Assembly (NCBI GenBank): GCA_035546535.1
Contig: DASZWQ010000204.1
Location: 62,001 to 126,000, forward strand
Reading direction: 5' to 3'
Source of the DNA: Pirellulales bacterium
Lineage (GTDB): Bacteria; Planctomycetota; Planctomycetia; Pirellulales; JACPPG01
DNA length: 64,000 bases
The translations under genes and the position numbers were made by a program. The notes beneath the pieces are model-generated. The model was not told the DNA's origin. It saw nothing but the letters and a program-made list of their open reading frames with translations, and ran no database searches. Of this stretch, positions 45,804 through 54,901 are shown one piece after another (within the stretch, counting starts at the first letter, position 1; every line of letters starts with the position of its first letter).

Positions 45804-46655
45804 CTACGGCAAGAAGCGCCGCCGCACGAACTCGCGATCGATCGTGCCCTCGGCCACTGCCGTCTCGTGCTGCTCGTAATCGTCGCTGAAGAGCGCGTCG
45901 ATCATGCACTGCGTTTCGTTCGTGGCGTGTTGCAATCGCGAGATCCAAAGCGGCCGCAATAGCCCGGTCGAATCGAAGATCTCGGGCTGAAAGCACAGGA
46001 CGATCCCGGCCGCGATTTCGCCATTCAAATCGGCATTAGGGCTGGGCCGATCGAAGGCCGTGGCAAAGCTCGCCCGCAGCGAGGCAAACATCAGCGACCA
46101 GGCCTGCGGGCCTTCGTCACGGAAATCATCGGCAAAATCGCGGGCGCGCTCGGCATTGGACCCGAACTCGCATACGTCGTGCGTCATGCTGATGAAGCCG
46201 ACCAGCAGATCCGACCAACATTCCGCGCGGCGCCGCAATCGATCAAGACGCTGAGCTGTTGCCGCATCGATCAGCGGGCTATTGACGAGCATCGACATCG
46301 CCCGATTCTGCGCTTCGTGCTGCCCCAGCAGGACCGTACGAGCGACGGATCCGGCATCCTCCCCGGTCTGTCGATCATGGGCCGTGATGACGCCGCCCCA
46401 GACCCGCGCCAGCACATCGCCCGTGACGATTTCTTCCAGCATCCCGATGCTAGCCCGCAATTCTTCGATCGTGTGCCCCTCGACGGGGATTTCGGTCAAA
46501 CGTTTGAGCATTCGCCCCCAGCGGTCAAGGCGGCACTTCGAGCCCGACCAATAGCGCTCCAGGCAAGGCGCCGGAAGAGGCGCCGCGTCGTTCATCACCA
46601 GGTGGCCATGCTGAGCGGCCAGTGAGGCTAGTTCCACAAGATCGCGTGCTTGCAT
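45804..46655 (-). CDS. hypothetical protein, mostly helical
   Basis: The 283-residue protein has no domain that I recognise and no signal peptide. It is rich in helix formers and contains ERYWSGSKCRLDRWGRMLKR and WSDLLVGFISMTHDVCEFGS. The closest impression is of a conserved planctomycete cytosolic protein. It is read toward the BON gene, with a 24-base gap between the two stops. Confidence 0.6.
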   Translation of the reverse strand: MQARDLVELASLAAQHGHLVMNDAAPLPAPCLERYWSGSKCRLDRWGRMLKRLTEIPVEGHTIEELRASIGMLEEIVTGDVLARVWGGVITAHDRQTGEDAGSVARTVLLGQHEAQNRAMSMLVNSPLIDAATAQRLDRLRRRAECWSDLLVGFISMTHDVCEFGSNAERARDFADDFRDEGPQAWSLMFASLRASFATAFDRPSPNADLNGEIAAGIVLCFQPEIFDSTGLLRPLWISRLQHATNETQCMIDALFSDDYEQHETAVAEGTIDREFVRRRFLP

Positions 46656-47084: not shown

Positions 47085-48071
47085 TCAGCGTTCGACCTTC
47101 AGCGGCACAAGGACCTTGACCTGTGGCACCAGTGGGGGAACCGAGCTATTGCAGATCGAGGAATCGTCCTCGCCACGCCCCGCCCCTTTGAAGCCGAAAG
47201 CATCGACGTAGATGTGATCCCCGTTTTCGACCAGTCGCGGGATCACGATGAAGACCACGCGGCCACTTTGGCACAGCACGTTCTGACCTCTCGGTCCGTG
47301 ATTGGAGCTGCGGTCCGAAGCCTCGTCGGCTGCGTCGGCCATGATGGCAAAATACTCGCGACAGTGGCCCCGCGTTGGCACATACCGATCGTTCTCGATG
47401 TGGCCGGGGTGATAGCCAAAGCTTCCGCCCATGACACGATGCCAGTATTGCAAAGCCGCGGGGTTCGCTGCTTGCAATTCCTGCGGAGTGGGGACACGAA
47501 AATCACGCTGCTTGGCCAAAGGAGATTCGGGGCAGACAAGCATCGACGGGCTCGTGAGCAGCCCCGCCTGCAACAACATCGGCGCGTAACTCCCCGCGGC
47601 GGCCATATTGCCGGTAGCGGGAATAAAGGGCAGATGGCCGTGAATGTTGCTGTATTGCGTCATCGCGACGCCCAGCAACCGCAGCTTGTTCTGGCAGGTC
47701 GCCAGGCGGGCGCCATGACGACTGTTTTGAATCGCTGGGAAAACCAGCATCGAGGCGACAAAGAAAATGCCCGCCGCGATCATGTAATCCGGCGCCTTCC
47801 AGGCACCGGTGCTAGCCGCGGCTTGCCCGGCGGAATTCCAGCCGGCGTGGGCCTTGACGAACTGAAACGTACGGGCTCCCAACCCGGGCGGCGGAGCCAG
47901 TTCGTCTTCCTCGTCCTCTTCCGAGGCGGCGTCGTCGAGAGCACGCAGAGAGGCTCGGAGCTTTTCCAGCTCGATTCGCAACTCGGGATCAATGGCCAGG
48001 GATGCCTCGACCGAGGCTTGTTCCGACGGTTCCAGCGCTCCCAGCAAGTAACCCAGCAGTTGCTCGCGCAT
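47085..48071 (-). CDS. anti-sigma factor with DUF1559/pseudopilin-like outer domain
   Basis: The 328-residue protein starts like a zinc-free anti-sigma domain (EQLLGYLLGALEPSEQASVE), has an acidic linker (DDAASEEDEEDELAP), one membrane segment (about 96-114), then an outer part beginning CQNKLRLLGVAMTQYSNIHG (126-145) and ending with NHGPRGQNVLCQSGRVVF (257-274). Those two pieces are hallmarks of DUF1559 proteins, which have a pilin-like N terminus and an H-x9-DG-like C-terminal motif. The start at 48071 is five bases after the sigma stop, so the pair is surely an operon. The outer domain may be the signal sensor; that is inference. Confidence 0.8.
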   Translation of the reverse strand: MREQLLGYLLGALEPSEQASVEASLAIDPELRIELEKLRASLRALDDAASEEDEEDELAPPPGLGARTFQFVKAHAGWNSAGQAAASTGAWKAPDYMIAAGIFFVASMLVFPAIQNSRHGARLATCQNKLRLLGVAMTQYSNIHGHLPFIPATGNMAAAGSYAPMLLQAGLLTSPSMLVCPESPLAKQRDFRVPTPQELQAANPAALQYWHRVMGGSFGYHPGHIENDRYVPTRGHCREYFAIMADAADEASDRSSNHGPRGQNVLCQSGRVVFIVIPRLVENGDHIYVDAFGFKGAGRGEDDSSICNSSVPPLVPQVKVLVPLKVER

Positions 48072-48076
48072 CGCCG

Positions 48077-48742
48077 TCAGCGATCTCCGCTTGGTTGGGC
48101 GCTCTTCCACGCCTCATTCAGCTTCGTGATCGCGGTGTGCAAGCGGCTTTTCACCGTGCCCACCGGCACTTTCAAGACCTCGGCGGCCTCCCGGTACTTC
48201 AGTCCCTGGTAATAGACCAAAGTAATCGCGCCCTTCAAGGCGTCGGGCAAAGCTCCGACCGAATCTCGAATCCAGCGCCGACGCTCCTCCGCGTCGGCCT
48301 CCTTGGCTGGCCCGGCCTCGCGGCTGACCAGCAATTCGGAAAGCGAGCCCAGGTCTTCTTCCGATTCGCCCTTTTGGCGGCGGTCCAGGCTCACCATCCG
48401 GTGTCTTTTGTTTCTACGTTGCGCATCAATGGCTTGGTTCGTGGCAATCGTGTAGAGCCAGGGGCGAAATTTCCGCCCCGCCTCGAATTGCCCGCATTTC
48501 AAGTGGACCTGCAAAAATGTACCTTGAAATGCATCCTCGGCCATGGCGGCGTCACCCAGGTAACGACGCAAATAGCTGTAAAGCTCCCGCTCGTAGCGGT
48601 GAACAAGGATCCCAAATACCCGAGGATCCCCGTCCGAGCAATAGCGGTCCAACAGGTCCTCGTCGCTCCATTGCGACAGGACCGAAGGAGCCGTCGTCGC
48701 TCGCTTGCTGATCTGCTTTTCGGAAGTGATTGTTTTACTCAT
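48077..48742 (-). CDS. ECF-type sigma factor
   Basis: The 221 residues show sigma region 2 (about 36-110, DPRVFGILVHRYERELYSYL, then FRPWLYTIATNQAIDAQRRN) and region 4 (about 158-212, KYREAAEVLKVPVGTVKSRL). Region 3 is absent, as expected for the ECF class. The neighbouring anti-sigma gene follows at once. An N-terminal tail of about 30 residues is rich in serine, threonine and lysine. Target genes are unknown. Confidence 0.92.
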   Translation of the reverse strand: MSKTITSEKQISKRATTAPSVLSQWSDEDLLDRYCSDGDPRVFGILVHRYERELYSYLRRYLGDAAMAEDAFQGTFLQVHLKCGQFEAGRKFRPWLYTIATNQAIDAQRRNKRHRMVSLDRRQKGESEEDLGSLSELLVSREAGPAKEADAEERRRWIRDSVGALPDALKGAITLVYYQGLKYREAAEVLKVPVGTVKSRLHTAITKLNEAWKSAQPSGDR

Positions 48743-49419
48743 GACTCTGCCGTGATATGCGGAACGCCCTAACCTGAGCGTCCCAAAGGGTTATTCTACC
48801 AAAACTGTTGGTTGCGCGAGATTTACGGATTCTTGTCGTTTTTTTCGCTCGAATGCCAAATCGGCATGACCGTGACCTTGCCGCTCCTGACGCCCGTATA
48901 ACCGCAAACGATGTGCCCCAAGCCGCGCGAATCCGCTCGCCAAGATCCTGCTGCCAAGCGAATTTACCGCAAATCATTCCAAATAAAGGCGTTATGGTTT
49001 ATCGCTTTGAGCACAGCGGGCGTGTCGCTAGCGACTCTACCGACGAAACCGCTTTTCAAGAGTTACAACGCTCAAGCCCGGCGACTGTATGATTCTGCAA
49101 CACCCAGCGGAGTGCGATTTCGAGTGCCTGCCATTCTGGCGACCGGAAGAGAATCAGTGATCTTAATGCCCTCTATCAAAGAAGTTATGGCGAATCAAAA
49201 GACCAGTGACCGCGCTGAAAATGCGAAGCGCGCGCAGCGAATCTTGTCTGGGTGGTGAATCCAAGAGTCAATCTGACGACAGAGCTTGGACACTTTTTTT
49301 GCGCCCTATACGGTCGGTAAGGAAATTGGTCAGTCACGCAAGCTACGGTTCATGAAATGCCGTATCTTCCGTTCATGCGGTCCGCGAATCCCCTGGCAAG
49401 GAGCCTGCTTACGCCCATG
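48743..49419. other. 677-base divergent intergenic region
   Basis: It lies between the minus-strand ECF operon and a plus-strand secreted-protein gene. It is slightly more A+T-rich than its surroundings. It holds a possible extended -10 for the ECF operon (48793-48801). Short open frames in it have no family look and no ribosome sites. Confidence 0.55.
48793..48801 (-). promoter_or_regulatory. extended -10 (TGGTAGAAT) before the ECF operon
   Basis: On the minus strand TGG precedes TAGAAT (five of six to TATAAT) about 50 bases before the sigma start codon. No clear -35 is present, in keeping with an extended -10 promoter or an ECF-type promoter that I cannot define by eye. Confidence 0.35.
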
Positions 49420-50791: not shown

Positions 50792-51472
50792 ATGCTCTCT
50801 CGCGTGCTCGAGCCCGAGGTGATGGATACGCCGCAGGAAGCGCTCGACTACGACTCGATGGATCATACCGCCGTCAACGCGGCGTTCGTCAGTGACATGC
50901 TGGCCGTGTTTCCCGAGGCTGTCGACGCCGAAGAAGAACATCTGGCCGTACTGGATATCGGCACCGGTACGGCGCAAATTCCCGTCGAGCTCTGCCGCCA
51001 CGTTCCGTCGTTCCGCGTTACGGCCATCGATCTGGCCGTGGCAATGCTCAATCTCGGCCGGAACAATGTCGAAGTGGCCGGCTTGAGAGAACATATCCGG
51101 CTCGATCGCGTCGATGCCAGGCAATTGCCCTACGCCGACGGCGAATTCGCGGTGGTGATGTCCAATAGCATCGTCCACCACATTCCCGACCCACGCGAGG
51201 TCCTGGTCGAGGCCGTCCGCGTGCTTCGCGACGGAGGATTGATTTTCGTTCGCGATCTGCTGCGGCCTGTCGACGACGCCGAAGTCGAGCATCTGGTCGC
51301 CACCTATGCCGCCGGAGCGAACGACCATCAGCGACAACTCTTCAATCAGTCGTTGCGGGCAGCGCTCGACCTCGACGAAGCACGGGTCTTGGCCGCGAGC
51401 GTTGGCTTGCCGCCCGAGGCTGTCTCACACACCAGTGATCGCCACTGGACACTCGCGGCTCGCAAGGCGTAG
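50792..51472 (+). CDS. class I SAM-dependent methyltransferase
   Basis: The 226-residue protein has the class I methyltransferase fold: motif I VLDIGTGTA (53-61) for S-adenosylmethionine, a second acidic residue at the end of strand 2 (FRVTAIDLAVAML), and ARQLPYADGEFAVVMSNSIV with HHIPDP after it. The substrate cannot be told from the sequence. It is 89 bases after the DUF6786-like gene on the same strand. Confidence 0.88.
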   Translation: MLSRVLEPEVMDTPQEALDYDSMDHTAVNAAFVSDMLAVFPEAVDAEEEHLAVLDIGTGTAQIPVELCRHVPSFRVTAIDLAVAMLNLGRNNVEVAGLREHIRLDRVDARQLPYADGEFAVVMSNSIVHHIPDPREVLVEAVRVLRDGGLIFVRDLLRPVDDAEVEHLVATYAAGANDHQRQLFNQSLRAALDLDEARVLAASVGLPPEAVSHTSDRHWTLAARKA

Positions 51473-53266: not shown

Positions 53267-53931
53267 TGCGAGATTCCCCGCTCGTCGAGCGCCCGCGCAC
53301 TGCCAGGCAGGACCCGCAGCAGCGCGGCCACGGATCGGGTCGCGCTCACGGCGACGGGGGCCAGGCTGCCGGTCAAATCTTCATCCAGGATCGTATCGTC
53401 CAGCGCCGTCGCATCCGGCGCGGCTTCGCCCACCGCGCCGGCGCCAGGCAAGGAACTCCACACGCCCGCCAGACTTTCGTTCGTGGCATTGATCAACGGT
53501 TGATACGTCTGGCGGGCCTGATCTACGAGCGGCAAATGCGCTTCGCCCGCGGTCGCTGCGTCACGATGCTCGATGGCCGCCAGTTGTGCGCCGACCTCGG
53601 CCTGATCGGACGGCGCGCGCAGCAACCAGGCAACCGTGGGAATCGCCGCCACGAGCAACGCCGCGGCCATGGCCATGGCCATCGTGCGCCGGCGCAGGGG
53701 CGCTCGCCGTGGGGCGGCCCGCCAATCGGCCACCACGCGCAAACCGAGGCCAGGCGGAACCTCGGGGCACGGCAGGGCCGTCACGCCAGCCAGCAACATG
53801 GCGTATTCGCGTAAGAGCTTCGCGCAAGCCGGGCACCGCGACGCGTGTTCGCACAGGATCGCGTCAGCCGCCGGCTGCGCACGCTCGTCGATCAAATCGT
53901 TCAGCCGAGTTTCAAACTCTTCGCACCGCAC
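53263..53931 (-). CDS. anti-sigma factor with HxxxCxxC zinc motif
   Basis: The 222-residue protein starts with a zinc-binding anti-sigma domain: CEEFETRLNDLIDERAQPAA, then H29-x3-C33-x2-C36 (EHASRCPAC). A membrane segment follows at about 84-104 (MAMAMAAALLVAAIPTVAWL), then an outer part with little recognisable order. The GTG at 53931 has GGAG seven bases upstream and lies 20 bases inside the sigma gene. The zinc motif suggests control by redox or by release of the sigma. Confidence 0.85.
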   Translation of the reverse strand: MRCEEFETRLNDLIDERAQPAADAILCEHASRCPACAKLLREYAMLLAGVTALPCPEVPPGLGLRVVADWRAAPRRAPLRRRTMAMAMAAALLVAAIPTVAWLLRAPSDQAEVGAQLAAIEHRDAATAGEAHLPLVDQARQTYQPLINATNESLAGVWSSLPGAGAVGEAAPDATALDDTILDEDLTGSLAPVAVSATRSVAALLRVLPGSARALDERGISQ

Positions 53932-54499
53932 GATGATTCTCCGACAAAACCTCGCGAGAGCGCAGCTGCTCGACCAACTCCCGGCGTGCTCGATGCACCC
54001 ACGTCTTGATCGTGCCCAGCGGGCAGCCCATCGCCTCGGCAATTTCTCCGTAGCTCAGTTCGTGTTCGTGGAACAACACAAAGGCCTGCCGGTACTCCGG
54101 CCGAATTCCGCCTAACGCCCGTTCCACTTCCTCCGCCAGGTGCCGCGCCGCCTCCGGCGGCGGAGCGCTGTCCTCGACCCGCTCGACCTCGCTTGCCAGG
54201 CGCGGCCGGCGCGCGCGGGCGGCCAAAAGCGTGCGGCAGCGATTGCCGGCAATGGCCAAAAGCCAGGGAGCGAAATCACGTTCGCTGTCCCAGCCTTTCA
54301 GGCTGCGGAGCGCCCTGACGAACGATTCCTGCGTCACGTCCTCGGCGTCCTCGCGCTGACCGAGCATGCGGTAGCACAGGGCGAAAACAGGACGCTCGAA
54401 CCGCGCGACCAGGGCTCCGGCCGCCTGGGCATCTCCGGCAAGGCAGCGGCGGACCAGATCCGTGACTTCGGCAGCCAGCGGATCGCGGTCAGCGGGCAT
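53912..54499 (-). CDS. ECF-type sigma factor, second
   Basis: The 195 residues contain region 2 (ALCYRMLGQREDAEDVTQES, then FAPWLLAIAGNRCRTLLAAR) and region 4 (LSYGEIAEAMGCPLGTIKTW). The start at 54499 is the family-like one; an ATG at 54562 would add 21 residues. The anti-sigma overlaps its end by 20 bases, and the secreted protein follows, making a tight three-gene unit. Target promoters unknown. Confidence 0.9.
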   Translation of the reverse strand: MPADRDPLAAEVTDLVRRCLAGDAQAAGALVARFERPVFALCYRMLGQREDAEDVTQESFVRALRSLKGWDSERDFAPWLLAIAGNRCRTLLAARARRPRLASEVERVEDSAPPPEAARHLAEEVERALGGIRPEYRQAFVLFHEHELSYGEIAEAMGCPLGTIKTWVHRARRELVEQLRSREVLSENHRAVRRV

Positions 54500-54655
54500 A
54501 GCAACTGGCCTTCGCTTGGGGATACCCGGCTCGGTCCGGGCTGGTTTCACCGGATGGGCCAAGAGCCCGCCCGCCGTCGGCTGCGCGGGGCGGAAAGAAC
54601 GGAATCTCAGCGGCCGCTCGCCCTTAATGTAACCGCTGGGCCGAAAATCCTGCGT

Positions 54656-54901
54656 CTATTCGTAGATTTCGCGAAAGATCTCTCGCAAATCGCGCGGCGA
54701 AACGTCCTCCAGACGCTGCCCACGCCGCTCCAGCTTTTCGTTGAGCTTGATGGCCGTTTCCTGCATCTGCGCGTGTGTGTCCTGCGAACCGCCGAACAGC
54801 ACGAAATTCTCCCCCCGCGTCAGCCGGGTGTGGCCATCGTCGTTGTCCAGGCCCAGCCCCAGCAGGGCGGCCTTCCGCTCTTTTTTGCGGGCAGCTTTCA
54901 A
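54656..54901 (-). CDS. small protein of unknown function (81 residues)
   Basis: The start is TTG with GAGG six bases upstream. The chain is basic at the start (MKAARKKERKAALLGLGLDN) and then has a mixed central part (HTRLTRGENFVLFGGSQDTH) and a helical end (QLNEKLERRG-type, RDLREIFREIYE). I do not recognise it, but the pattern is like small conserved planctomycete proteins. Confidence 0.65.
   Translation of the reverse strand: MKAARKKERKAALLGLGLDNDDGHTRLTRGENFVLFGGSQDTHAQMQETAIKLNEKLERRGQRLEDVSPRDLREIFREIYE

Follow-up and report, generated by a model that had tools for sequence, protein, structure and literature searches.

The present analysis identified, in the window (the whole stretch of 64,000 nucleotides that was analysed), a gene (47085..48071, minus strand, ATG start) whose 328-residue product almost certainly, as far as its sequence and predicted fold can tell, carries a class I anti-sigma domain in the place of a prepilin leader, with a pilin helix and a pilin head beyond it. 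This architecture is supported by profiles, an AlphaFold model and structure alignment. The gene adjoins that of an ECF sigma factor (221 residues, 48077..48742, minus strand), the two together making up the span 47085-48742. As the initial annotation had stated, the sigma reading frame lies five bases ahead of the anti-sigma frame; both frames are on the minus strand. Regions 2 and 4 of the sigma protein are clear (Sigma70_r2, E-value of 3e-18; r4_2, 1.5e-11), and its orthologue adjoins the fusion at all loci checked. A second ECF sigma reading frame of the window (53912-54656, minus strand) is close enough to the first one to fall into the same cluster.

Residues 1-56 (47904..48071, minus strand) form the cytoplasmic anti-sigma domain, and residues 57-90 (47802..47903, minus strand) a cytoplasmic linker with a PPxGL motif whose P60, P61 and L64 are conserved. 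The N-terminus of the fusion matches NCBIfam anti-sigma models with E-values of 3.6e-11 and 3.5e-10, both under the curated cut-offs, and anti-sigma profiles match all 28 relatives. VIA-align places residues 1-73 on RsiW, RslA, MucA and RskA (Z-scores of 5.3-6.4 over 49-70 residues). Class I anti-sigma domains bind their own ECF sigma factor. The fusion displays both the N-terminal fold of this class (ASDI) and a gene adjoining that of an ECF sigma factor, and it very probably acts as an anti-sigma factor. The zinc motif Hx3Cx2C was found in none of 78 homologues, in agreement with the zinc-free anti-sigma start proposed initially; this motif is optional in the ASDI class, about 44% of ASDIs being devoid of it (PMC7406223).

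The initial annotation described an anti-sigma factor with a DUF1559-like block beyond the membrane, a reading that it tied to a significant profile hit. PF07596 (DUF1559) does match the fusion (E-value of 4.9e-5, 23.9 bits for a cut-off of 23.3), in residues 115-149 only, which correspond to the first 35 of the 268 profile positions and not to the whole profile. The profile also matches 18 of 28 relatives (E-value up to 0.01), and standalone prepilin relatives likewise match it at positions 2-41 only. By itself, such a 35-residue match would be thin evidence; a chance match was ruled out by profile-profile comparisons, by structure and by the standalone prepilins. Compared by hhalign with DUF1559 proteins of its own genome, the fusion family aligns at 99.1% (E-value of 7.5e-19), in register from ahead of the membrane helix through the CP motif. 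The transmembrane segment alone reaches 93.9% against DUF1559 proteins, versus 0.2% for the anti-sigma N-terminal domain used as a negative control. Standalone prepilins with a GFTLIE leader and an N_methyl domain are present in other classes of the phylum. They align with the fusion family by hhalign at 99.6% (2e-24; model columns 87-302) and are matched on the outer half by hmmsearch with E-values of 1e-26 to 7e-29 (model columns 80-311) in a three-sequence set, the same prepilins giving 6e-23 to 2e-21 in whole-genome searches. The C-terminal half of the fusion alone still aligns with whole prepilins (hhalign, 98.1%, 1.3e-13). The pilin head (residues 149-328; 47088..47627, minus strand), assigned by profile and structure alignments, contains C180 and a NHGPRGQNVLCQSGRVVF motif. 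The closing H-x9-DG-like motif noted initially lies in a prepilin-like half, but its form is H-x10-[DS]G, with a spacing of x10 and not x9, and TIGR04294 (H-X9-DG-CTERM) matches neither the window fusion nor, except weakly in three cases, its 28 relatives. A PDB sequence search with the fusion gave no match.

The AlphaFold model of the fusion (mean pLDDT of 90) contains a single continuous helix at residues 93-144, plus strands, and thus predicts the long alpha1 and beta-sheet head of type IV pilins. Foldseek found nothing in PDB or among viral structures at E-values up to 0.001; the pilin and anti-sigma folds were recognised by VIA-align re-alignment, which matched residue 91 of the fusion to the first residue of several mature type IV pilins (9iuf, 8uhf, 2hi2). 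The structural Z-scores for pilins are modest (2.7-5.3), and 18 of the 19 matches listed are either pilins or anti-sigma factors of the RsiW/RslA/MucA/RskA type. Residues 91-112 (47736..47801, minus strand) are the transmembrane helix alpha1-N of the pilin, and residues 113-148 (47628..47735, minus strand) continue alpha1 on the extracytoplasmic side and include the CQNKL block, this latter assignment resting on PF07596 and on the predicted helix. Everything from residue 91 on is therefore type IV pilin, i.e., a complete pilin-like protein. The fusion announced by the initial annotation is thus real, as PF07596, hhalign and the model all indicate, but the pilin does not begin beyond the membrane: since the membrane helix itself is pilin alpha1, a whole pilin follows the anti-sigma domain, which occupies the place of the leader.

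When the pilin part is numbered as a mature pilin, W91 becomes position 1, D95 position 5 (where pilins have Glu5, an assembly residue), P112 position 22 and C126 position 36. This 36-residue frame is free of indels in all 78 homologues. Position 5 (D95 codon at 47787..47789, minus strand) is acidic in 78/78 of this set (Asp in 77, Glu in one); 75 homologues retain P22, 70 retain R28 and all 78 retain C36. Among the 57 sequences left after thinning to less than 60% identity, 100% still have the acid, whereas positions 2-4 and 6-7 vary. The hydrophobic alpha1 with its position-5 acid and Pro22 is thus that of a pilin, albeit mostly with Asp instead of Glu; ordinary DUF1559 proteins of the same genome have Glu. 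At this position, one fusion from outside the class has Gly (L273) and one member from within the class has Asn (L146). Two Pirellulaceae-type members read FTMMD and FTMAD at the pilin start, which is a visible remnant of the FTLxE start of pilins.

What precedes this start is no longer a leader. The strict prepilin-peptidase site G-[FML]-x3-E is present in 0/78 homologues, and the fusion has no class III leader ending in Gly or Ala. The peptidase site is thus lost in these homologues, and the anti-sigma domain stands in the place of the prepilin leader. Since there would be no leader cleavage, polymerisation of the fusion into filaments is not expected. It could be imagined that the prepilin peptidase nevertheless cleaves where the pilin begins, so that the anti-sigma domain, alone or together with the sigma factor, enters the cytoplasm and the sigma factor responds to peptidase activity. 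The own genome does encode prepilin peptidases, and the residue at position -1 is Ala in the window protein and Gly or Ala in 20/78 homologues. However, Arg is the commonest residue there (33/78), no homologue keeps the strict site, and a prepilin leader always has Gly or Ala as its last residue (PMC10191384), which makes such a release very improbable.

The fusion is widespread. All 57 relatives searched (57/57) match it, and in most of them the best match is full-length. In a sample of the class Planctomycetia, 104 of 148 genomes match at E-values up to 1e-15, nearly all with exactly one copy. An ECF sigma gene lies directly upstream at 30/30 loci, at all 57 testable loci (57/57; these two sets share some species) and at 18 class-wide loci, confirming that the pairing recurs in other genomes. 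At a nineteenth class-wide locus (L147), the sigma gene is on the same strand and overlapping long frames blur the gene boundary. The possibility of an assembly artefact, which the initial annotation had raised against itself, or of two neighbouring genes taken for a single one is negligible: dozens of independent genomes have the same join, in most cases within an unbroken reading frame, with 0 indels in 78 homologues. Apart from the sigma/anti-sigma pair, conservation of the gene neighbourhood is weak. Near the pair, a gene without assigned role (45804-46655, minus strand) recurs at 8 of about 60 loci and a methyltransferase gene (50792-51472, plus strand) at 11.

Beyond the class, the sample of the phylum yielded pilin-type matches only, plus one fusion: L273 (genome G257), which adjoins an ECF sigma gene and has a zinc-type anti-sigma domain (HLESCTEC). 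Among the families sampled, f16 probably corresponds to Pirellulaceae. In f22, no sigma orthologue was found in nine genomes at the stringency used, and the one f22 match inspected (L148) is an ordinary DUF1559 protein; the pair therefore seems to be jointly absent from this family. In two genomes (L128 in G045 and L129 in G062), sigma orthologues are followed by strongly diverged anti-sigma proteins with mere traces of the pilin block. A 3.3 Mb relative (G006) keeps sigma relatives (L130 and L131) and has no recognisable fusion, so that the anti-sigma gene seems to have been lost; a homologue of the window gene 45804-46655 adjoins one of these sigma relatives.

Two kinds of promoters were found ahead of the sigma gene. 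The first one, of sigma-54 type (GGCAC-N5-TTGC; 48903..48917, minus strand), is conserved across loci: GGCA[CT]-N5-TTGC is present at 60 of 79 loci, the window included, versus 0.7 in shuffles, and RpoN is encoded in the own genome. The second one is an ECF-type box, [CT]GAAC[CT]-N-T ... CGTA with a spacer of 16-17 bases, found at 71 loci about six bases ahead of the likely start codon. The last A of CGTA is present in 71/71, although the search pattern demanded CGT only. This box is similar to promoters recognised by sigma-W-like ECF factors, and it suggests autoregulation from a leaderless transcript in most relatives. It is absent ahead of the sigma gene in the genus of the window (five genomes), where an alignment of five congeners revealed a conserved extended -10-like box, TTTTGGTAGAAT (48793..48804, minus strand). 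Between this box and the sigma-54 site (within 48800-48903, minus strand), the genus also has a near-palindrome, TGCCNNTTTGGCA, perhaps an operator.

Searches of box matches in relatives identified no regulon target beyond the own operon. Ahead of DUF1559 genes of the own genome, the ECF box was found in 1/30 cases, without enrichment, and the sigma-54 site in 2/30; this test of the ECF box is weak, since the own genus lacks it even before the sigma gene. A large ECF regulon was rejected, the strict box not being in excess over a reversed-pattern control in five relatives. Among 72 box-match regions, only one downstream family recurs: two genomes from a single family have an elongation-factor-G-like gene there. 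In two other instances (L219 and L224, from two families), an ECF-type box lies 10-13 bases ahead of the ATG of genes for small, cysteine-rich and apparently secreted proteins; these genes are possibly ECF targets and possibly chance matches. In Planctomycetia, sigma-54 promoters are over-represented at pseudopilin-type genes of COG2165 (PMC12316311).

We propose, giving this scheme an even chance, that the pair is a two-gene signalling operon in which an uncleaved pilin-type anti-sigma factor senses the pseudopilin pool or its assembly and releases the sigma factor. The anti-sigma domain would hold the sigma factor at the cytoplasmic face of the membrane, in which the fusion would stay uncleaved because its peptidase site is gone. 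The pilin helix, with its retained position-5 acid and Pro22, would pack against mature pseudopilins, and the fusion would sense the free pool or the state of assembly. Disturbance of the pool or of the assembly machinery would then lead to release of the sigma factor, probably via regulated proteolysis. The sigma-54 promoter would supply the operon, under an enhancer-binding regulator, and the ECF-type promoter would add positive feedback in most relatives. We infer that the pilin part is the sensor. That the signal is itself a pilin or pseudopilin has, in our view, somewhat less than an even chance: the retained acid, the sigma-54 promoter and pilin-to-sigma precedents argue for it, and against it stand the lack of ECF boxes before DUF1559 genes, the absence of a detectable regulon, the persistence of the fusion in a genome poor in DUF1559 genes (G016, 6 matches) and family f22, which has DUF1559-type proteins yet no detectable sigma orthologue in nine genomes. 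The Gly and Asn found at position 5 in L273 and L146, the rarity of the sigma-54 site ahead of DUF1559 genes, the missing ECF box of the window's own genus and the modest pilin Z-scores also count against the scheme. The idea of the initial annotation that the protein could report the state of a surface or secretion apparatus is made plausible by the position-5 acid, the sigma-54 promoter and the precedents, but draws no support from the ECF boxes.

The pilin part could instead have been borrowed only to anchor the protein in the membrane and to give it a stable outer module, which would sense something unrelated to pilins (a ligand, an envelope stress protein or the redox state of C126/C180), a reading that is quite plausible though we would not favour it at even odds. 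The persistence in G016 and the lack of any sign of ECF control over DUF1559 genes are consistent with it. In the predicted model, where the helix begins at residue 93, D5 is close to the helix start and may do no more than cap it. However, position 5 is fixed while its neighbours at 2-4 and 6-7 vary freely, and none of the inspected transmembrane segments of non-fusion anti-sigma factors from relatives has such an acid, most of them having basic starts. C126 and C180 are almost invariant, as a redox sensor would have it, but both align with cysteines of ordinary DUF1559 proteins and are therefore inherited rather than special. Returning to the pilin as signal, Glu5 pairs in filaments with the N-terminal amine of the neighbouring subunit (PMC10191384). 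A more specific and rather unlikely version is that the fusion, as an uncleavable pilin, is located among the pseudopilins of the inner membrane and that its position-5 acid pairs with the free N-terminal amine of mature pseudopilins, the occupancy of this site setting whether the sigma factor is held or released. If this inventory of pilins were real, a pilus subunit would be a direct transcriptional regulator across a bacterial class.

Planctomycete genomes encode DUF1559 pseudopilins by the dozen. An anti-sigma factor that derives from such a pilin, is present in most of the class and is nearly always single-copy offers a genetic handle on them, with its sigma factor as a ready reporter and position 5 as a ready mutation, and through such an inhibitor the cell may couple gene expression to its pilus or secretion machinery. 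Prepilins and class I anti-sigma factors probably share a common topology, with the N-terminus inside and the C-terminus outside; the fusion would therefore need no change of topology, and the swap of a leader for an anti-sigma domain would be a simple, single-step evolutionary route to a pilin-based sensor. Class I anti-sigma factors are known, as are DUF1559 pilins, and the composite in which the former replaces the leader of the latter seems to be new: our search of the open-access literature found no description of it, and an earlier one may exist elsewhere.

Compared to RsiW, RskA, RslA and MucA, the fusion shares the N-terminal fold, the position of its gene after that of an ECF sigma factor, a single predicted membrane helix and, in most relatives, a predicted ECF-type autoregulatory promoter; it differs by the pilin nature of its helix and outer domain, by the lack of a zinc motif and by the upstream sigma-54 promoter. 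With DUF1559/SBP_bac_10 pseudopilins and short planctomycete prepilins, it shares the 1-5-22-36 frame, the CxNNL block, CP, the closing GQNVL-x2-DGHV motif and the whole outer half, which is homologous. Unlike them, it has an anti-sigma domain for leader and peptidase site, Asp5 instead of Glu5 and usually Trp1. Two systems of Pseudomonas provide precedents. PilS interacts directly with PilA, PilR acts with sigma-54 and pilA is itself under sigma-54 (PMC6058289). As would be the case for the fusion, pilin in the inner membrane is read there and fed to transcription, and sigma-54 is involved in both; but PilS, a histidine kinase, binds a pilin that is a distinct protein, whereas the sensor of the fusion would itself be a pilin and its output an ECF sigma factor. 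In P. aeruginosa PAO579, truncated PilA triggers the degradation of MucA via AlgW, and rpoN is needed (PMC3684759). There also, a pilin acts on an ECF sigma factor (AlgU) through its anti-sigma factor; however, the pilin and the anti-sigma factor are separate proteins linked by a protease, AlgW, whereas they are joined in one chain in the protein described here.
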